A stretch of 64,000 nucleotides of DNA from Burkholderiales bacterium. Its GTDB lineage: Bacteria; Pseudomonadota; Gammaproteobacteria; Burkholderiales; Burkholderiaceae_C. Below the pieces are notes generated by a model. That model searched no databases, had not been told where the DNA came from, and worked only from the letters and a program-made list of their open reading frames with translations. Below are positions 2,677-57,044 of the stretch, in pieces. The position numbers and the translations under genes were made by a program. Every line of letters begins with the position of its first letter. Positions within the stretch are counted from its first letter, which is position 1. The stretch covers positions 310,001 to 374,000 of the forward strand of contig JAGWTR010000001.1 in assembly GCA_028868855.1 (NCBI GenBank). Direction: 5' to 3'.

Positions 2677-3477
2677 TCAGGCTGCCTTGGACTCGATCCC
2701 TCCGTGGCGCGTGTACAAGAAGTCCAGCACCGCTTTGCGGCAGTGCATATAGGTGGGGTCCTCTGCCAGTTCAACCCGATGGCGGGGACGAACCAGGGGC
2801 ACGGTCACGATCTCGCCAATCGTCGCCGCAGGGCCGTTGCTCATCATCACGATGCGGTCTGATAGCAGCACGGCTTCGTCCACGTCGTGCGTCACCATCA
2901 CCACGGTGCTTTGCGTGCGGGCCACGATCTTGAGCAACTCGTCCTGCAAGTTGGCGCGGGTCAAGGCATCCAGGGCGCCAAAGGGTTCATCCATCAGCAA
3001 GACCTTGGGCTCCATCGCCAGGGCGCGGGCAATGCCCACCCGTTGTTTCATGCCGCCGGAGATTTCATGCGGCCGCTTTCCGATCGCATGACCCATGCCG
3101 ACCAGTTCAAGGGCGTCGAGGGTGCGCTGCTTGAGTTGCTCCTTGGTTTCCTTGTCGCCAAATACCCGCTCCACCGCCAGATAGACGTTTTGATGACACG
3201 TCAACCACGGCAACAGCGAGTGGTTTTGGAACACGACAGCGCGCTCAGGCCCCGGTGCATTGATTTCCTTGTTGTCGCAGATCAGCGCGCCGGCTGAGGG
3301 TTTGAGCAAGCCCGCGATCAGATTCAGCAGGGTGGACTTGCCACACCCGGAGTGCCCGATCAGGGTCACGAACTCGCCCTGGTCGATGCCCAGGTTGATG
3401 TTGGTCAGGGCGTGGAAGCGCCCCCGCTTGGTGTTGAACACCATCTCGGTGCTGTGGATGTCGATGAACTGACTCAT
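2677..3477 (-). CDS. Nitrate/nitrite ABC transporter ATP-binding protein (NrtC/NrtD/NasD type)
   Basis: This 266-residue cytoplasmic ATPase energises the nitrate importer formed with the two genes upstream. Walker A is GHSGCGKST near residue 42, the Q-loop is in VVFQNHSLLPWLT, the ABC signature is ISGGMKQR near 140, and Walker B is VLLMDEPFGALD near 160, followed by the switch histidine in VMVTHDVDEAV. The family is nitrate/sulfonate/taurine ATPases. There is no C-terminal substrate-binding-like extension, so it resembles NrtD or NasD rather than the long NrtC. GGAG lies nine bases before the ATG. It is the last gene of the operon, ending at the terminator inside lgt. Confidence 0.9.
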   Translation of the reverse strand: MSQFIDIHSTEMVFNTKRGRFHALTNINLGIDQGEFVTLIGHSGCGKSTLLNLIAGLLKPSAGALICDNKEINAPGPERAVVFQNHSLLPWLTCHQNVYLAVERVFGDKETKEQLKQRTLDALELVGMGHAIGKRPHEISGGMKQRVGIARALAMEPKVLLMDEPFGALDALTRANLQDELLKIVARTQSTVVMVTHDVDEAVLLSDRIVMMSNGPAATIGEIVTVPLVRPRHRVELAEDPTYMHCRKAVLDFLYTRHGGIESKAA

Positions 3478-3494: not shown

Positions 3495-4367
3495 TTATTC
3501 AAAGCTGAAGCGCTTGGCCACGCTCATCAGCAGCTGCTCGAGCAGCAGGCCGACGATGCCAATCACGAAAATGGCGATCAGGATGTGGGCCACGTTGAGG
3601 TTGTTCCATTCGTCCCAGACCCAAAAGCCGATGCCCACGCCACCGGTCAACATCTCGGCCGCCACGATCACCAGCCAGGCCGTGCTCACCGACAGACGCA
3701 CGCCGGTCAGCATGTAGGGCAGCACCGAGGGAAGGAGGATGCGCGTGACGATCTTCCACTCGCTCAGGTTCAGCACCTTGGCCACGTTCAGGTAGTCCTC
3801 GGGCACGCGCTGCACGCCCACCGCTGTGTTGATGATCATGGGCCAGATTGAGCAGATGAAGATCGTCCAGATGGCGGCCGGGTCGGCCGACTTGAACACC
3901 ATCAGGCCAATGGGTAACCAGGCCAGCGGAGAGACCGGGCGCAGCAAGCTGATCAAGGGCGACAGCATGTTGTTGATGAAAGTGACTCGCCCGATCAAGA
4001 AGCCCATTGGTATGCCCACCAGGGCGGCCAGGCCAAATCCGACGGCCACGCGCTTGAGCGAGTACCAGATGTTCCAGCCCAGGCCCTGGTCATTGGGCCC
4101 GTTTTGGTAGAACGGGTCCGCGAACAGTTTGACCGCCTCGGTCCAGGTGGCCGCCGGTGTCGGAAAGGTCGTGCTGTTCATGGTCAGTAGGGCCCAGATG
4201 CCCAGTAGAAGGCCGATTCCGCACAGGGGCGGTAGGACTTTGAGCAGCAGGCTCGACCAGTCAAAGGGCGGGGCGACCGGCGCCACATTGGATACATTGG
4301 GCGCCACCTTGGTCAATTTCGTGACCTCACTGGCTTCGGATGGGTTGTGAAACACGGCACTGACCAT
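3495..4367 (-). CDS. nrtB: Nitrate ABC transporter permease
   Basis: This permease of about 290 residues has six predicted membrane helices. Its EAA-type loop, around LRPVSPLAWLPIGLMVF and the following WPMIINTAVGVQRVP, is where the ATPase docks. This is typical of NrtB/NasE permeases of the nitrate/sulfonate/bicarbonate group. An upstream ATG at 4379 directly abuts the nrtA stop codon (TAAATG) and could allow translational coupling. The ATG at 4367 has GGAG at ideal distance and is preferred here. It sits between nrtA and the ATPase gene on the same strand with very short gaps, so the three form one transcription unit. Confidence 0.9.
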   Translation of the reverse strand: MVSAVFHNPSEASEVTKLTKVAPNVSNVAPVAPPFDWSSLLLKVLPPLCGIGLLLGIWALLTMNSTTFPTPAATWTEAVKLFADPFYQNGPNDQGLGWNIWYSLKRVAVGFGLAALVGIPMGFLIGRVTFINNMLSPLISLLRPVSPLAWLPIGLMVFKSADPAAIWTIFICSIWPMIINTAVGVQRVPEDYLNVAKVLNLSEWKIVTRILLPSVLPYMLTGVRLSVSTAWLVIVAAEMLTGGVGIGFWVWDEWNNLNVAHILIAIFVIGIVGLLLEQLLMSVAKRFSFE

Positions 4368-4379
4368 GAGGGACTCCAT

Positions 4380-5603
4380 TTAAGCCTTGACCTTGAAACC
4401 GTCGGCGTACTTGGCGGGGTCTTTGCCGTTCCACACCACGCCATCGAGCAACTTACTGGTGCGCATCACATCTTTGGGAACACTGATCTTCATGGCGCCC
4501 GCCACGTCCTTGTAGAGGTCGACCTGATTGATCTGTTTGGCCACGGCCAGGTAATCGGGGTGCTGCTTGAGCAACCCCCAGCGCTTGTGCTGGGTCAGGA
4601 ACCACATGCCGTCGGACAGGTAGGGGAAGTTCACCGCGCCATCGTTGAAGAACTTCATGTGGTTAGGGTCATCCCAGGTCTTGCCCAGGCCGTTCTGGTA
4701 GCGGCCAAGAATGCGCTGGTTGATGGCGTCCACGCTGGTGTTCACGTAAGACTTTGCCGCGATGGTCTCGGCCATCTTCAGCTTGTTTTGGAGGCTGGCA
4801 TCAATCCAGCGACTGGCTTCCAGCACGGCCATCATGACGGCGCGGGCCGTGTTGGGGTGCTTCTTGACGAACTCGCCCGTGGTGCCCAGCACCTTCTCGG
4901 GGTGGTCCTTCCAGATGTCCTGCGTGGTGATGGCGGTGATGCCAATGCCGTCCATGATGGCGCGGTGACCCCACGGTTCGCCCACGCAGAAGCCGTCCAT
5001 ATTGCCCACCCGCATGTTCGCGACCATTTGCGGGGGCGGCACGGTGATCACTTTCGCGTCGGTCACCGGGCTGATACCAGCGCAGGCCAGCCAGTAGTTC
5101 AGCCACATCGCATGAGTGCCGGTGGGGAAGGTGCCCGCGAAGGTGTACTCGCGTTTCTCGGCGGCCATCAATTTGGCCAGTGAAGGGCCATCAACCGCGC
5201 CCTTGTTCGACAAGGCTCTGGACAGCGTGATGGCCTGGCCGTTGTTGTTCAGGCTCATCAACACGGCCATGTCCTTTTTGGGGCCGCTGATACCCAGGTG
5301 CACGCCATAGATCAGGCCGTACAGCACATGTGCCATGTCCAGCTCGCCATTAACCAGCTTGTCGCGAACACCGGCCCAGGAGGCCTCCTTGCTGGGAATG
5401 ATCTTGACGCCATACTTCTTGTCGAAACCCAGCACCGAGGCCATCACGACTGAGGCGCAATCGGTCAGCGGGATGAAGCCGATCTTGACTTCTTCCTTCT
5501 CGGGCTTGTCCGAGCCTGCGGCCCACACCGCCGATTGCAGCCCAGGCACGACGCCCACGGCACTGGCAGCCGCAGCGGTTTTCAAGATGGAGCGACGGGA
5601 CAT
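4380..5603 (-). CDS. nrtA: Nitrate ABC transporter substrate-binding protein, Tat-exported
   Basis: This NrtA/NasF-type nitrate-binding protein of about 407 residues begins with a twin-arginine signal (SRRSILK, then an alanine-rich hydrophobic stretch and cleavage near VWAAG). It is therefore predicted to fold before export and work in the periplasm. VKIGFIPLTDCASVVMA near mature residue 10 and the GNMDGFCVGEPWG block are characteristic of the nitrate/bicarbonate-binding family. ATGs at 5642, 5624 and 5603 are in frame. The last has AGGA about eight bases upstream and is preferred, although a longer N-region is possible. It is the first gene of the operon, preceded by the terminator-containing leader at 5652-5784. 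Confidence 0.88.
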   Translation of the reverse strand: MSRRSILKTAAAASAVGVVPGLQSAVWAAGSDKPEKEEVKIGFIPLTDCASVVMASVLGFDKKYGVKIIPSKEASWAGVRDKLVNGELDMAHVLYGLIYGVHLGISGPKKDMAVLMSLNNNGQAITLSRALSNKGAVDGPSLAKLMAAEKREYTFAGTFPTGTHAMWLNYWLACAGISPVTDAKVITVPPPQMVANMRVGNMDGFCVGEPWGHRAIMDGIGITAITTQDIWKDHPEKVLGTTGEFVKKHPNTARAVMMAVLEASRWIDASLQNKLKMAETIAAKSYVNTSVDAINQRILGRYQNGLGKTWDDPNHMKFFNDGAVNFPYLSDGMWFLTQHKRWGLLKQHPDYLAVAKQINQVDLYKDVAGAMKISVPKDVMRTSKLLDGVVWNGKDPAKYADGFKVKA

Positions 5604-5651
5604 TTTGAAATCCTGTGAGTTCATGGTGACTTCAGCTTTCATGGCCAGCGA

Positions 5652-5716
5652 TAAACAAAAAAGGCATCTGCCGTGAAGACCGCGCTGAACGCAGTTGCTT
5701 CTCGGAAGACGCCTTT
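5652..5716 (-). terminator. Leader terminator of the nrt operon
   Basis: On the minus strand the arms at 5716-5698 and 5678-5660 pair over about 19 positions, including one G-U pair and two mismatches. The outer six pairs are AAAGGC/GCCTTT. The 3' arm runs directly into TTTTTTG and then TTTAT. It sits just before the nrtA start codons and 8 bases after hairpin P2, so most transcripts should stop here unless an antiterminator acts. Confidence 0.85.
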
Positions 5717-5724
5717 GTCGGTGG

Positions 5725-5753
5725 CTTGAAGGCCCTTCATTGGGTTCTTCAAG
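5725..5753 (-). promoter_or_regulatory. ANTAR-type hexaloop hairpin P2
   Basis: Minus-strand CTTGAAG and CTTCAAG form a 7-bp lower stem. After a small internal loop, CCC pairs with GGG to close the six-base loop AATGAA (5741-5736). A at loop position 1 and G at position 4 are the bases recognised by ANTAR proteins. The hairpin lies between P1 and the leader terminator. Confidence 0.8.
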
Positions 5754-5760
5754 TCGGTAT

Positions 5761-5780
5761 CGAAATCGCCGTTGATTTCG
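5761..5780 (-). promoter_or_regulatory. ANTAR-type hexaloop hairpin P1
   Basis: Minus-strand CGAAATC and GATTTCG form a perfect 7-bp stem closing the six-base loop AACGGC, again with A1 and G4. It is separated from P2 by seven bases and begins about four bases after the start site predicted from the sigma-54 promoter, so it is effectively the 5' end of the transcript. Confidence 0.8.
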
Positions 5781-5795
5781 CTTGCTGGGTACTAC

Positions 5796-5810
5796 GCAAG
5801 CGTCGTGCCA
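5796..5810 (-). promoter_or_regulatory. Sigma-54 (RpoN) -24/-12 promoter of nrtABC
   Basis: On the minus strand TGGCAC (5810-5805), five bases and TTGC (5799-5796) match the RpoN consensus exactly, with correct spacing. Counting 12 bases from the GC of the -12 element puts the transcript start near 5784, immediately before hairpin P1. This implies nitrogen-status control by an NtrC-like activator. Confidence 0.85.
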
Positions 5811-5917: not shown

Positions 5918-6553
5918 TCAACTGAGCATGTCAGCGACATCCAGGAGTCGCTGCGCCACGTCGGCCAGCTTCAGGCCCTTGTCCATGGCGGTTTTGCGCA
6001 GGCGTGCATAAGCCTCTTGCTCAGACAGGCCATGCTTGGTCATCAGCACCCCTTTGGCCCGGTCGATCACCTTGCGCTCTTCAAGTTGGCCGCGCACATC
6101 GGCCAACTCACGGCGCAGCGCTTCTTCATGTTCGAAGCGGGCCATGGCCACGTCCATCACCGGCTTGATGCTGTCCGCGGGCAGTCCGGCCACCACATAC
6201 GCCGACACGCCTGCCGCAATGGCCGCGCGCACATGCGTCGTGTCCTCATCATCTGAAAAAAGCACGATGGGGCGGCGCTCATCGCGCGTGGCCATCACCA
6301 CATGCTCCAGGATGTCACGGCCCTGGCTTTCGGCGTCGACCACGATCATGTCAGGCTGGATCTGCGCGATGCGTTCTGGCAGGAACACGTCGGCGGGCAG
6401 GGCGGCCACGATGTTGAAGCCGGCCTCCAGCAAGGCAATGCGCAGCATGCGCGAGCGCTCCGCCTCGGCCCAGGCTGACGCATCGGTCTCGGGGTCGGCG
6501 GTCAGGTTCTCGGGCGCCACGATCACCAGGCGCATTTTTCGGGCTGCAGTCAT
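5918..6553 (-). CDS. nasT: NasT-type ANTAR antitermination regulator
   Basis: This protein of about 211 residues has an N-terminal receiver-like domain (about 1-130) and a C-terminal ANTAR RNA-binding domain (about 150-205, with RAKGVLMTKHGLSEQEAYARL and LADVAQRLLDV). The receiver keeps an aspartate in MIVVDAES but lacks the acidic pair after strand 1 and the conserved lysine, so it is probably a pseudo-receiver. In known systems NasT binds paired hexaloop hairpins in nitrate-assimilation leaders and prevents termination, and is held inactive by NasS. Exactly such a leader follows this gene. No nasS is present in the window. The ATG at 6553 is chosen because upstream codons do not look conserved. 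Confidence 0.88.
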   Translation of the reverse strand: MTAARKMRLVIVAPENLTADPETDASAWAEAERSRMLRIALLEAGFNIVAALPADVFLPERIAQIQPDMIVVDAESQGRDILEHVVMATRDERRPIVLFSDDEDTTHVRAAIAAGVSAYVVAGLPADSIKPVMDVAMARFEHEEALRRELADVRGQLEERKVIDRAKGVLMTKHGLSEQEAYARLRKTAMDKGLKLADVAQRLLDVADMLS

Positions 6554-6617
6554 GCCCAAGTCTATGCAATAAGCAAGCCTGCCTCCGGGCCATCTGGCGC
6601 GCACCTACACTGGCGAC

Positions 6618-52578: not shown

Positions 52579-53685
52579 ATGAGTTGGATGCAGGGTCCAC
52601 AGAATATTTCTCATCAAGCGCAACGGTCGCGGCCGTTTCGTGCGTATCTATTTGGCTGGGGCTTGGTCGGCTTGGTCGCGCTTGTGACCTTGGTGTTCAT
52701 CAAGGCGCCTGCTTGGGCGCACAGTCTTTTCCTCCTGCTGTGGTGTCTGGTGTGGGGCACTTGGCTGGCGCGCAATCCGTCAGGGCTTGAGGTGGAGTCT
52801 TTCCCGCCGGAGGTGGTGACGCCAGCAGTCCTGGCCTCTGATGACGAGCCGGATGTTGAGGATGATGCACCGCTGGCCGTGTCCGCGAACGACTCCAAAC
52901 TCGAACCCGACCCCGAGGTTTTACGCTACGCCCTGTCGCACGACCTGCGGGCACCACTGAGGGTGGTCGATGGGTTCACCCGCATCCTCAAGGAGGACTA
53001 TGGCCGTGTGCTGGACAAGGTGGGTAACGACCACCTGGAGCGTGTGCTTGCGGCCTCTGCGCGGATGAACGGCATGATCGACGCGATTCTGGCTCAGGCC
53101 CAGTTGGCACGGGCGCCACTGGAGCGCCGGGAGATCGACCTCAGCGCGCTGGCGCGAGAGGTGGCCGGTGAGTTGTCCGGCCTGCACCGAGACGCAAATG
53201 GGGGGCGCAGCCAGTTAACGGACTTCGGGTGTGCCGAGTTCGTGGTGGCCGATGGCCTGTTGGCCGATGGCGACCCGACCTTGGTGCGTCGTGTGCTGGA
53301 AAACCTCATGGGCAACGCCCTGAAGTACAGCGCCAAGGTCGCGCAACCGCGCATTGAGGTGGGCCTCATGCCTGCCACCAATCCGGCGGTGTTTTTTGTG
53401 CGCGACAACGGGGTTGGCTTTGATATGCAGCATGCCAACAAGCTGTTCGGCCTGTTTCAACGCTTGCACAGCGCCAAGGAGTTTCCGGGCTCCGGTGTGG
53501 GACTGGCGGGCGTTCAAAACATCATCGCGCGCCACGGCGGCCGTGTGTGGGCCGAGGCCCAGGCGGGGCAAGGGGCCTGCTTCTACTTCACGCTGATCAG
53601 TGCTGCGCAAGCGCAGCAAAAGGCGTTTCGCGTCTCAGGGGCCTCAGGCACTGATGTCGACTCAGGTCAGCGGGCCCAGGCCTGA
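52579..53685 (+). CDS. Membrane-bound sensor histidine kinase
   Basis: This 368-residue kinase has two short membrane helices (about 22-42 and 46-64), a linker, and HisKA with the phospho-accepting histidine in ALSHDLRAPLRVVDGF near 120. The ATPase domain has the N-box in ENLMGNALKYS near 235 and glycine boxes DNGVGFDMQ and GSGVGLAGVQNII. The sequence is of the type found after phytochrome and PAS sensors, but no sensory domain is fused, so the input is unknown. It is divergent from the hybrid kinase and convergent with the ANTAR regulator, overlapping its 3' end by 24 bases. Confidence 0.88.
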   Translation: MSWMQGPQNISHQAQRSRPFRAYLFGWGLVGLVALVTLVFIKAPAWAHSLFLLLWCLVWGTWLARNPSGLEVESFPPEVVTPAVLASDDEPDVEDDAPLAVSANDSKLEPDPEVLRYALSHDLRAPLRVVDGFTRILKEDYGRVLDKVGNDHLERVLAASARMNGMIDAILAQAQLARAPLERREIDLSALAREVAGELSGLHRDANGGRSQLTDFGCAEFVVADGLLADGDPTLVRRVLENLMGNALKYSAKVAQPRIEVGLMPATNPAVFFVRDNGVGFDMQHANKLFGLFQRLHSAKEFPGSGVGLAGVQNIIARHGGRVWAEAQAGQGACFYFTLISAAQAQQKAFRVSGASGTDVDSGQRAQA

Positions 53686-54288
53686 GAGGACTTCCTGGGC
53701 CTCCAGCAGCCGCTGGCACCAGGCCTCCAGTGAGCGGCCATCCTGTTGGGACTGCTTGTGCAATCGATCCAGGGCTTGGCTGCGGTTCAGCGAATGCCGG
53801 TGCATGACGATGCCCACGGCCAAGGCCACGGTATGGGTCAGCGGGTCGGCCTGTTGTTCGGCGACAGGCGCTGATGGTTTGGCGGTGAGCGGGGGGACAC
53901 CGGCCTGGTCCTGGGCTTTGCGGCGGTTGGCAAAGGCGGACTCGACCGCCGGGATGATCTGCTGGATGTCCAGGGGCTTGACCAGGTAGGTCACTGCGCC
54001 CAGTTCCTTGACCTGCGCCACCGTGGCTTCGTCAGAAAAGGCCGACAGAAACATGAAGGGGATCTGGCAGTAGTCGCGCAGATAGGCGGCCACGTCAAAG
54101 CCGGATTTTCCTTCCATGCGAATGTCTAGCAGGGCCAGTTCGGGCTTGTGTTCACGCGCCAGCAAGATGGCGTCGTCCCCGTTGTCAGCATCGATGACTT
54201 CATATCCCGCTTGCGACAGGCCATGCGTGACCGTGGCCAGCACCAGTCGGTCATCATCCACCACCAGAATTTTACCTTTGTGACTCAC
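53662..54288 (-). CDS. Response regulator with divergent ANTAR RNA-binding domain
   Basis: This protein of about 208 residues has a complete N-terminal receiver (ILVVDDDRLV, Asp in LALLDIRMEG, Lys in YLVKPLD), a linker rich in Ala and Pro, and a C-terminal ANTAR-like domain (about 150-200: VALAVGIVMHRHSLNRSQALDRL). The usual AKG is AVG and the LRxxA segment is replaced, so RNA binding may differ. ANTAR regulators act by antitermination when phosphorylated. The GTG at 54288 has GAGG at good distance; the ATG at 54294 is too close to it. It lies downstream of the HisKA_2 kinase gene, its probable partner. Confidence 0.85.
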   Translation of the reverse strand: MSHKGKILVVDDDRLVLATVTHGLSQAGYEVIDADNGDDAILLAREHKPELALLDIRMEGKSGFDVAAYLRDYCQIPFMFLSAFSDEATVAQVKELGAVTYLVKPLDIQQIIPAVESAFANRRKAQDQAGVPPLTAKPSAPVAEQQADPLTHTVALAVGIVMHRHSLNRSQALDRLHKQSQQDGRSLEAWCQRLLEAQEVLSGLGPLT

Positions 54289-54419
54289 GTGCATCCTCGT
54301 TGGGCCGCTCAAGCCCTGGGCCGCTACGGAGGCGATGCGCCTCAGATCACGTCAAGACTGCCTAACCGTATTGTCGACCGGCAAACGGCAGATATTCTAT
54401 ATATCTTTGCGCCGACCAC

Positions 54420-57044
54420 TCATTGTGACCAAAGCATGATCTGCTGACCAGTGGCTTCACCCATGAGGGGGGGGCGACTGACCAGACTGATGCTCGGGGG
54501 AGTCAGTTCAATGCGCGTGACCACTTCGGTGTCCTCCTGGGTCAATGTCAGCATGGAGCTGCGCCGGGGAAGCAGGGCGCGCACCAGGCCCAGGCCGGAG
54601 ACGCCCCCGCGCACCCGGGCCAGGGTGAAGTCCTCGGGCAGGCGCCCCGGATTGCGGATTTCGATGGTCACGCGCTGGTCCGAGCAGGTCATCATGCAAC
54701 TCAGCGGCCCGCCGCCCGGACCGTGCTTGTGGGCATTGGTGAGCAGTTCGTTCAGGCTCAGCGCGATGGGGATGGATTCAGCTTCGGGCAATTGCCAGTC
54801 GGCCGCCGAGGTGCCTTCGACCACCAGCGTGATGGCGCGCCCGAATGTGCGTTGCACCGACTGCGCAATCGCCTCGACGACATTCTTGAGGTGTAAGGGT
54901 CCGCCCGCGCCAACTTGCAGGCCGTAGACCTGGGCAATGGCCTGGACTTGGCCGACGGCTTCGGAGATGGCGGAGGCCACTTCGGGTTTGCGCACGGCGA
55001 TCTGTTGCAGCAGGCCCGCCACCCCTTGCAGGTTGTTCTTGATGCGGTGATGCACTTCCTTGACCAGCATGTCCCGCTGCGCAATGGCCGCGACCAGCCG
55101 CGCCTGTTCTGCGGCGCGCTGTTCGCTGACATCCGAGGCCACCAGCAAGAGTTCGTCAGCCATCTGCCCGTCGTGAGACAGCGGAAGGTAGTTCACGTCC
55201 CAGATCTGCACGCCTGATAGGCCATGCTGCAGCTTGTATTCGCGGCGCAAGGGCGTGTCCGAGTCGAGTGCCGTGAGCATGTCGGCGCGCACCAGTCGCG
55301 CACGTTCGGCGTCATGGATCTGTTCGGGCGCCAGATTCAGGGCCTTGCTGGCGTCGATGTTCAGGAACGCTGAAGATGCCTGATTAGACTGGATGACCTT
55401 CAAGGTGCGGGCGTCGTACAAGGTGATGGCCATCGGCGCCATCTCGATGATGCGTTGCAAGGTGGCCCGCGCTTCCAGCGTCAGGGCTTCGGCTTCGCGG
55501 CGGCGATCGATGTCCAGCAGGGCATAGGTGATCTGGCGTTCGTTGAACTCGCCCAGGGTGACCACAGCGTTACCAACCACCCAGAATACGCGTCCGTCGC
55601 GGCCCATCACCTCGCATTCAAAGGTGTGGGACTGCCCATCCTGCAGCTCGTCCAGGTAGCCCGTCAGGCGGAAGGGGTGGTCCAGGTCCGGGGTGGCCAC
55701 GGTGCTGAGCGGCAGGCCCAGGAAGTCGTTCAGGTCGCCTCCAAACATGCGCCGGGCCGAACGGTTCATCCAGACGATGCCTTGTTCATCCAGCGTGACG
55801 ATGCCCACGAAGACGGAGTCCAGGATGGCGCGAGTGCGGTTGGCCTGCCGGGTTAGGTTTTCTTCCGCACGGTGACGGTCGTCCACGTTGACGAACGAGG
55901 CGATGTAGCCTTCATCGGGGCGCTGCGCGTGCACCAGCCGTAGGCTGACTTCGGCCCACAGGGGGGTGCCTCGTCGGTGCAGCAAGGCGCGCTCTCCCTG
56001 CCAGTGACCGCGCCGGTTCAGTTGGGTCAGGACGTCGGCGTCGGTGTCTGGGCAGACATCGGTGGCGTATTGACTCAGCATGGGGCGCCCGACCAGGTCG
56101 CTGTCATCCACCCCCAGCAGATGGGCCAGCGCCGGGTTGACGCTTTGCACCAGTCCATCACGCACAAAGGCAATGCCCACGCCGGACAGGCTGAACATCA
56201 GGTCGCGGTCTCGGCCCAGGGCTTCGAGCTGGGCTTGCTGCGCGCGGATGCGGGAGATGTCCGACAGCACCGCAATAACCTCCAGAAGCGGGCCGGTTAG
56301 GCCGATGCGGCGCATGCTCAAGGCATACCAGCGGGTGGCGTGGCCCGGGGTGACGATTTCGATTTCGGTTTCAAACTGCCCGGTGGTCTGTAGTTCGGTG
56401 GTCGATTGCATGACCACGCGCTGGATGCGGGGGTCGCTGGCCAGCAGGGTGTCAAGGTGCTGACCCGGCAGGGCTCCGGGGGTGAGCCCCAGCATGCGCT
56501 CGAAACGGCGGTTGCAGCGCACCACGATGTCGCCACGCAGGTAGGCAGTGCCGGCCGGGCTGCTCTCCAAGATGGTGCTCAGTTCGTGCAGCAGCTGGTC
56601 CTGGGTGATGTCGGGCGGGTGGGGTAATTCGTCCAGAGCGCCTGGTTCAGTGTCTGGCTCGGGTGGGCGTTGCAGCATCAAGGACACCGGCGTCGTGTCT
56701 TGAACAATGCACAAAAAACGCAGCGATGCACCACCTTCGTTGGCGGCGTGTGCATGCACCTCGCTGCGCAGGTGGCGCGATTTTCGCGCCCCGAGTTGGA
56801 GTCTGGCTTGATTGTCCAGTGGCGCATCGCCGGGGGTCAGTCCCAGAAGGCTCAGCGGTGAATCCCAGCCGGTCAGGCATTGCAGGGTCGCGCTGCCTTG
56901 GGAGAGATAGCCGCCGGGACGCGGCTTGTCGCCAAGTAATTGCCTGAAGGTGGCATTACTACGCAGCACGCAACCTTGTTCGTCGAATTCGAGCAGGGCC
57001 TGGGGCACCAACTCAAACCAGGCATCGTCGGAACGGGGGGTCAT
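54420..57044 (-). CDS. PAS-rich sensor histidine kinase of the HisKA_2 type
   Basis: This 874-residue, apparently soluble kinase has about five PAS or PAS-PAC units (residues about 15-660). The HisKA_2 segment VKEVHHRIKNNLQGVAGLLQ near 680 holds the phospho-accepting histidine. The C-terminal ATPase domain is short, with LSLNELLTNAHKHGPGG near 775. HisKA_2 kinases are the usual partners of ANTAR regulators (EutW-EutV type), which fits the gene immediately downstream. It starts 30 bases after mrp on the same strand, so it may share that transcript. The sensed ligand is unknown. Confidence 0.88.
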   Translation of the reverse strand: MTPRSDDAWFELVPQALLEFDEQGCVLRSNATFRQLLGDKPRPGGYLSQGSATLQCLTGWDSPLSLLGLTPGDAPLDNQARLQLGARKSRHLRSEVHAHAANEGGASLRFLCIVQDTTPVSLMLQRPPEPDTEPGALDELPHPPDITQDQLLHELSTILESSPAGTAYLRGDIVVRCNRRFERMLGLTPGALPGQHLDTLLASDPRIQRVVMQSTTELQTTGQFETEIEIVTPGHATRWYALSMRRIGLTGPLLEVIAVLSDISRIRAQQAQLEALGRDRDLMFSLSGVGIAFVRDGLVQSVNPALAHLLGVDDSDLVGRPMLSQYATDVCPDTDADVLTQLNRRGHWQGERALLHRRGTPLWAEVSLRLVHAQRPDEGYIASFVNVDDRHRAEENLTRQANRTRAILDSVFVGIVTLDEQGIVWMNRSARRMFGGDLNDFLGLPLSTVATPDLDHPFRLTGYLDELQDGQSHTFECEVMGRDGRVFWVVGNAVVTLGEFNERQITYALLDIDRRREAEALTLEARATLQRIIEMAPMAITLYDARTLKVIQSNQASSAFLNIDASKALNLAPEQIHDAERARLVRADMLTALDSDTPLRREYKLQHGLSGVQIWDVNYLPLSHDGQMADELLLVASDVSEQRAAEQARLVAAIAQRDMLVKEVHHRIKNNLQGVAGLLQQIAVRKPEVASAISEAVGQVQAIAQVYGLQVGAGGPLHLKNVVEAIAQSVQRTFGRAITLVVEGTSAADWQLPEAESIPIALSLNELLTNAHKHGPGGGPLSCMMTCSDQRVTIEIRNPGRLPEDFTLARVRGGVSGLGLVRALLPRRSSMLTLTQEDTEVVTRIELTPPSISLVSRPPLMGEATGQQIMLWSQ

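Follow-up and report, generated by a model that had tools for sequence, protein, structure and literature searches.

The DNA between a nasT-like gene and nrtA in the window (the whole 64-kb stretch analyzed here) very probably specifies an ANTAR transcription-antitermination leader for nrtABC, in which a hairpin held closed by NasT would block the terminator. Read along the minus strand, a nasT-like gene is followed by a sigma-54-type promoter, hairpins P1, P2, and P3, a terminator, nrtA, nrtB, and nrtC/D. An earlier note on this DNA had proposed that nrtABC has a sigma-54-type promoter and an antitermination leader of the ANTAR (NasT-type) class, and this proposal is supported by the parts, their loops, and their conservation. 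The same note had regarded two hexaloops as the complete element, which was not borne out, since a third hexaloop hairpin, P3 at 5719-5708, had been overlooked. The parts, their conservation, and the mutual exclusion of P3 and the terminator were established computationally. The leader thus appears to be of a known kind, and what is presumably new is one extra upstream hexaloop hairpin.

In the mechanism that we favor, sigma-54 polymerase would start near 5784, and P1 and P2 would fold first, offering hexaloops on which NasT, the product of the gene just upstream, could dock. NasT would then hold the emerging P3 closed, and as P3 contains the terminator 5′ arm, the terminator could not form and nrtABC would be read. 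Without active NasT, P3 would be too weak and the terminator would form. NasT binding, read-through, and nitrate control are proposed by analogy with known systems, and the functions assigned to P1 and P2 are likewise putative.

Gene order, promoter, and upstream hairpins

The nasT-like gene (5918-6604, minus strand) ends at 5918, directly upstream of the leader, and encodes a C-terminal ANTAR domain (Pfam PF03861, 5.4e-23). Three minus-strand genes lie downstream of the leader, i.e., nrtA (4380-5642), encoding a nitrate-type Tat-signal binding protein (Pfam NMT1_2, 7.6e-99; TAT_signal, 6.3e-05) and named after its family and neighboring genes, nrtB (3495-4379), encoding a nitrate ABC permease (TIGR01183, above cut-off), and a gene for an nrtC/D-type ATPase (2677-3477; TIGR01184, above cut-off). 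All elements named previously (promoter, P1, P2, terminator, ANTAR gene, and nrtABC) were found in place.

The predicted sigma-54-type promoter, TGGCACGACGCTTGC at 5810-5796 on the minus strand, matches TGGCAC-N5-TTGC exactly and, as had been claimed, places the transcript start near 5784. On its own the match has little significance, since the exact string occurs once in the 64-kb window versus 0.47 times expected; it is the recurrence in relatives that counts. We therefore considered 81 stretches reaching from NasT to the next gene, made up of the window and the top 80 among 157 relatives that a NasT search had retrieved. The best promoter match was 10/10 bases in 66 stretches, 9/10 in 9, and 7 to 8 in 6, and this conserved -24/-12 element points to a sigma-54 promoter, from which sigma-54 would probably initiate transcription at about 5784. 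Seven stretches from loci without an nrtA match (L039, L041, L048, L062, L069, L071, and L077) were excluded, among them L069, one of the nine 9/10 stretches, whose match was judged to be due to chance and which was removed manually; 74 leaders remained. Elsewhere in the own genome, a near-match, TGGCCC-N5-TTGC, precedes nirB (L106, C17, at about 5580), and neither a terminator nor an ANTAR leader was seen with it. The idea that nirB-nasA of that genome also has an ANTAR leader was rejected, as inspection by eye and Rfam yielded only this near-match.

P1 (5761-5780, minus strand) is the hexaloop hairpin CGAAATC[AACGGC]GATTTCG (-6.2 kcal/mol), and P2 (5725-5753, minus strand; -10.9 kcal/mol), the middle hexaloop hairpin, comprises 7 bp, an internal loop, 3 bp, and the loop AATGAA. 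Both hairpins with their A1/G4 loops had been described before; their coordinates and stems were confirmed, and they recur in relatives with covarying stems. The linkers measure 7 nt between P1 and P2, 5 nt between P2 and P3, and 8 nt from P2 to the terminator, and the loop-to-loop distance is 25 nt for P2-P3 versus 32 nt for P1-P2. None of 200 shuffles folded as well as the stretch 5784-5640 (z = -4.6). The MFE structure of this stretch, which runs on to the nrtA start, breaks P1 for a long-range stem, and the centroid keeps P1.

The third hexaloop and the terminator

The terminator, previously predicted as a stem of about 19 bp with a six-T tail just before nrtA, was found at 5716-5657 (minus strand) with -31.3 kcal/mol and the six-T end. 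It overlaps P3, GAC[AAAGGC]GTC (5708-5719, minus strand), the presumed antitermination hexaloop hairpin, at positions 5716-5708. Because the loop and 3′ arm of P3 form the start of the terminator 5′ arm, the two structures are mutually exclusive. The suggestion of the earlier note that the leader acts like nasF, without a simple competing stem, did not hold up, given this overlap and the absence of P3 from the MFE structure of every one of 54 full leaders. The nasF leader itself offers no precedent for absent competition, since the excerpted text of Ramesh 2012 (PMC3369931) reports a terminator-base hexaloop in nasF.

Folded up to the terminator loop, the window leader has an MFE structure composed of P1, P2, and P3 (-21.6 kcal/mol). 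When the sequence extends to the T-run, the MFE structure consists of P1, P2, and the terminator (-51.3 kcal/mol versus -37.3 kcal/mol with P3 forced), such that forcing P3 costs 14 kcal/mol. For the 54 leaders in which all parts were located, full-leader MFE structures contained P3 in 0/54, P1 in 46, and P2 in 43, and P3 formed in only 20/54 when leaders were cut before the terminator 3′ arm. P3 is weak alone (-0.7 kcal/mol), which fits a hairpin that needs a protein to stay closed. Full-leader MFE structures with P1 and P2 folded together and P3 lost (35/54) would also suit hairpins that act mainly in trans, the terminated short sigma-54 transcript soaking up NasT in the manner of EutX/Rli55, which the excerpt of a review describes as known sponges for EutV. 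We consider such a role very improbable, as the site directly before nrtA and the exclusivity of P3 and the terminator point instead to a role in cis.

Conservation and covariation among relatives

The nr set comprises 60 leaders, the window included, kept from the 74 by k-mer similarity; these leaders are related, and the conservation counts are therefore not independent events. The earlier reading implied that relatives would retain the A and G of both loops. Indeed, the P1 loop is A1-G4 in 54/60 (G1-G4 in 3 more, other in 3) and the P2 loop is A1-G4 in 53/60 (G1-G4 in 3 more, other in 1, none in 3). A P3 candidate with R1 and G4 was detected in 60/60 leaders (A1 in 35, G1 in 25), of which only the detection in all 60 counts because the search required R1, G4, G5, Y6, a following GT, and a 3-bp stem. 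The G1 found in 25 leaders would be tolerable on the view presented in the excerpt of Walshe 2022 (PMC8934654), according to which the EutV protein is contacted by G4 and not by A1.

A stricter automatic count placed a P3-terminator pair in 56/60 nr leaders and missed it in 4/60. Upstream of P3, strict A1-G4, C-G-closed hexaloops numbered two in 39/56 leaders and one in 17/56, or 45/56 and 11/56, respectively, with G1 allowed; among 8400 dinucleotide shuffles, two upstream loops occurred in 0.08% and a single one in 3.1%. The distance between P3 and the last upstream loop is 21-27 nt in 28/56 nr leaders and at least 45 nt in 18/56. We also analyzed an order-level set of 45 hand-picked leaders from other genomes of the order, in which NasT is followed by an NrtA-type gene (stretches L153-L156, L158, and L159 lie outside this set). 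The automatic P3-terminator pair was present in 28/45 and absent in 17/45. Among the 28 leaders with P3, strict upstream loops numbered two in 8, one in 18, and none in 2, and the last upstream loop was 21-25 nt from P3 in 14/26. Three loci missed or misread by the program (L088, L129, and L143) look three-looped by eye.

A covariance model built from 28 hand-picked leaders, the window leader among them, matched 77/150 genomes of the family at E 0.01 or better. In the own genome its single strong hit was the window leader, one of the sequences from which it was built. As for further copies in this genome, the model gave seven weaker hits, of which the first three fall within or across ORFs and were discounted as chance matches, and the last four have E 0.23-0.82. 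Some loci depart from the window arrangement by eye. Acidovorax-type loci (e.g., L042, L058, and L072) carry an extra spacer hairpin between P2 and P3, with the loop CCCAAT in several. In L087, from a genome with adjacent NasS, the gap before nrtA (about 3060-3360) contains a promoter-like site matching 8/10 bases, together with three hexaloop-like hairpins of which two overlap, and no clear T-tailed terminator was seen there.

Alignment cells changed on both sides of a pair numbered 105 in P1, 83 in P2, and 13 in P3, each above all 500 shuffles, and the paired cells of the three hairpins likewise exceeded all 500 shuffles. Two weaker measures were less uniform, as shuffles reached the pair-type number in 77/500 (P1), 1/500 (P2), and 288/500 (P3) cases and the number of pairs with double change in 267/500, 1/500, and 44/500 cases, respectively. 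The closing pairs of P3 (C-G and A-U) yield no covariation because both are invariant, and its 3′ arm is additionally constrained by the terminator. In the 28-sequence alignment, the whole structure had 92.4% paired cells versus 76% when shuffled and at most 50% when slid, with 10 pairs changed on both sides (reached by 2/500 shuffles) and a pair-type number that was not outstanding (223/500 shuffles); the test is biased in favor of the structure, part of which was derived from the same sequences. As judged from these alignments, P1 and P2 covary.

P1 and P2 are the stronger hairpins, with most of the covariation, and their 7-nt spacing lies within the 5-12-nt range of eut leaders in the excerpted literature, all of which would be compatible with P1 and P2 alone being the ANTAR element, without a competing stem, and with P3 as a by-product of the terminator sequence. 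However, the P3 5′ arm lies outside the terminator stem and yet complements the 3′ arm in 60/60 leaders (the 3-bp stem being a search criterion), known ANTAR leaders, as far as the excerpts describe them, have a hexaloop at the terminator base, and in 18/28 order-level leaders with P3 only one strict loop lies upstream, which makes this explanation very unlikely. It is extremely unlikely that the hairpins are an ordinary nasT terminator region without any regulator. A strong terminator does lie downstream of nasT, but promoter and loops are conserved, the stems covary, and the leader is kept before nrtA in three congeners without adjacent nasT.

Known leaders, the regulator, and the nitrate signal

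The preferred reading, a NasT-held P3 that blocks the terminator, is consistent with what is described for other ANTAR leaders. According to the excerpted text of Ramesh 2012 (PMC3369931), the terminator 5′ base forms the second hexaloop hairpin in the eut, amiE, and nasF leaders, function depends on the linker length and on A1 and G4 in each loop, eutP P1 does not tolerate a swap of its two closing pairs, and eut leader linkers span 5-12 nt. In the window leader, P1, P2, and P3 all have stems of at least 3 bp and A1/G4 hexaloops, the linkers of 7 nt (P1-P2) and 5 nt (P2-P3) fall within that range, and P3, not P2, is the last hairpin that overlaps and excludes the terminator. The terminator-base hexaloop, its C-G closing pair, A1/G4, and the linkers agree not only with Ramesh 2012 but also with the NasR selection, which, in the part of the source available, also yielded C-G-closed A1-G4 loops. 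The window leader shares A1/G4 hexaloops, short linkers, a last hexaloop on the terminator 5′ arm, and nitrogen genes with the eutP, amiE, and nasF leaders and, going by the excerpts, differs from them by one more upstream hexaloop hairpin and a sigma-54-type promoter directly before it. Because P3 sits where the terminator-blocking hairpin of known leaders lies, we regard the window leader as an ANTAR antitermination leader of the conventional type to which one hexaloop hairpin has been added. Excerpts of Walshe 2022 (PMC8934654) state that an ANTAR dimer is unlikely to hold both loops simultaneously and propose a recruitment hairpin distinct from an antitermination (terminator-blocking) hairpin; the Paracoccus nasA leader is described in part as having two hairpins, of which the first one matters. 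No paper on a three-hairpin ANTAR leader, on NasT without NasS, or on the narK motif was found in the open-access literature, which does not establish absence from print.

At curated cut-offs, an Rfam search of the window returned tRNAs only. In an E-value threshold search, narK RNA (RF03032) matched at 5809-5706 with 36.6 bits (E 1.3e-05), below its cut-off of 43.2. In this alignment, the first model positions fall on the promoter, the model hairpin on P1, and the last positions, CGACAAAGACGUCG, drawn unpaired, on P3, with P2 inside a 33-nt insertion. The narK consensus also has the promoter bases, CC[AACGGC]GG at P1, and CGAC[AAAGAC]GUCG at P3, whereas the model lacks P2 and has its second hexaloop drawn unpaired, and the window scores below its cut-off. 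The alignment thus makes P2 the inserted hairpin by homology, although in the window P2 lies nearer to P3 than to P1. The Rfam model seems to contain a DNA promoter and to show no hairpin for its second hexaloop, and narK RNA is probably an ANTAR leader with the promoter inside its model.

Two loci, L146 (43.3 bits) and L094 (45.1 bits), reach the narK cut-off. Among ten order-level loci, those with two loops (L146, 43.3; L119, 40.7; L118, 37.3; L138, 36.5; and L147, 32.3 bits) tend to outscore those with three (L090, 32.9, and L128, 29.7 bits; none for L113, L124, and L142), with overlapping ranges and the window at 36.6. Ten three-loop nr loci gave a narK match at E 0.1 in four cases, all under the cut-off, and 41 relatives gave one at E 0.01 in 23 cases, one above the cut-off. 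The P11 RNA of Pseudomonas (RF00625) resembles the leader in its consensus UUGGCAC plus CUGC, its C[AACGau]G loop, and GGACAAAGGCGUCC plus a terminator; it was rejected as the closest family for being too weak (16.9 bits versus a cut-off of 70).

The own genome (99.67% complete) encodes two ANTAR proteins, both inside the window. In the window NasT, Pfam reports ANTAR and no receiver or NIT domain, and the N-terminal part is receiver-like by alignment only. In that alignment (with the L058 row disregarded for its wrong frame), NasT of the window lineage has lost what we take to be the acidic pair of the first receiver strand, carries an insertion, and keeps the presumed Asp after strand 3. No NasS was detected in this 99.67% complete genome, where NrtA is the only NMT1_2 match and also the only protein hit by a NasS query (31% identical). 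A NIT-ANTAR protein was not found there either, the sole NIT match (E 2.3e-10) being a frame of 645 aa located on another contig. The second ANTAR protein (receiver plus ANTAR; 53662-54312, minus strand) adjoins a multi-PAS HisKA_2-type kinase (54420-57044, minus strand), a pair that we take to be built like EutVW. Weak ANTAR matches similar to this protein are repeatedly present across the genus, and no target leader was found for it.

Like the NasS-NasT system of Paracoccus, as excerpted from PMC3795266, the locus combines an ANTAR-domain NasT (5.4e-23) with a leader before nitrate assimilation genes; unlike it, the window genome has no detected NasS and an altered NasT receiver. The likeness to NasR/nasF (PMC7496416, in excerpt) lies in nitrate-linked ANTAR antitermination, a two-hairpin target, and the occurrence of NIT-ANTAR in congeners, while the window regulator differs in having no NIT domain. 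When match tables of 25 genomes from the genus, counting the own one, were compared by eye, NasT stood beside an NrtA-type gene in 18/25 and NIT-ANTAR was present in 20/25 (domains confirmed with Pfam in two genomes and taken from matching frames in the rest). Four of the 25 (own, G008, G010, and G024) have NasT beside NrtA without NIT-ANTAR, and six carry NIT-ANTAR but have no NasT next to NrtA. In four of these six, the leader before nrtA was read. Three loops were found in G007 and G011 (the latter with G1 in P2) and P1 plus P3 in G023; in G021, P1 and P3 were recognized by eye before an nrtA only 32% identical to that of the window. Since the leader is kept before nrtA in NIT-ANTAR congeners without adjacent NasT, it appears to persist when one ANTAR protein is exchanged for another. 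NIT-ANTAR (NasR-type) proteins adjoin nirB in two loci read (L092 and L098).

Among 200 genomes of the order, six (G027, G080, G123, G136, G143, and G201) have by eye a NasS-like frame directly behind NasT, counting matches up to E 1e-30 only and with the assignment based on position except for G027, the source of the query. A rule that the NasT receiver insertion goes with NasS loss was rejected, as NasT proteins with the DE pair (L088, L089, and L090) are also without an adjacent NasS-like frame. The question thus raised is how a NasT without a NasS or NIT-ANTAR partner learns about nitrate. One speculative answer, which we consider unlikely, is that the extra hairpin makes the leader a feedback device: each terminated leader, in which P1 and P2 remain folded and form a full two-hexaloop ligand for ANTAR proteins, would sequester a NasT and keep the operon off, replacing the NasS brake in NasS-less lineages, with nitrate input coming from elsewhere, e.g., from a folded, unexported Tat-type NrtA. 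As for the preferred antitermination by a NasT-held P3, the window leader suggests a mechanism for the Rfam narK RNA, and the EutV recruitment model becomes testable with a conserved leader that has two hexaloops ahead of the terminator-blocking one, set against relatives that have a single hexaloop there.
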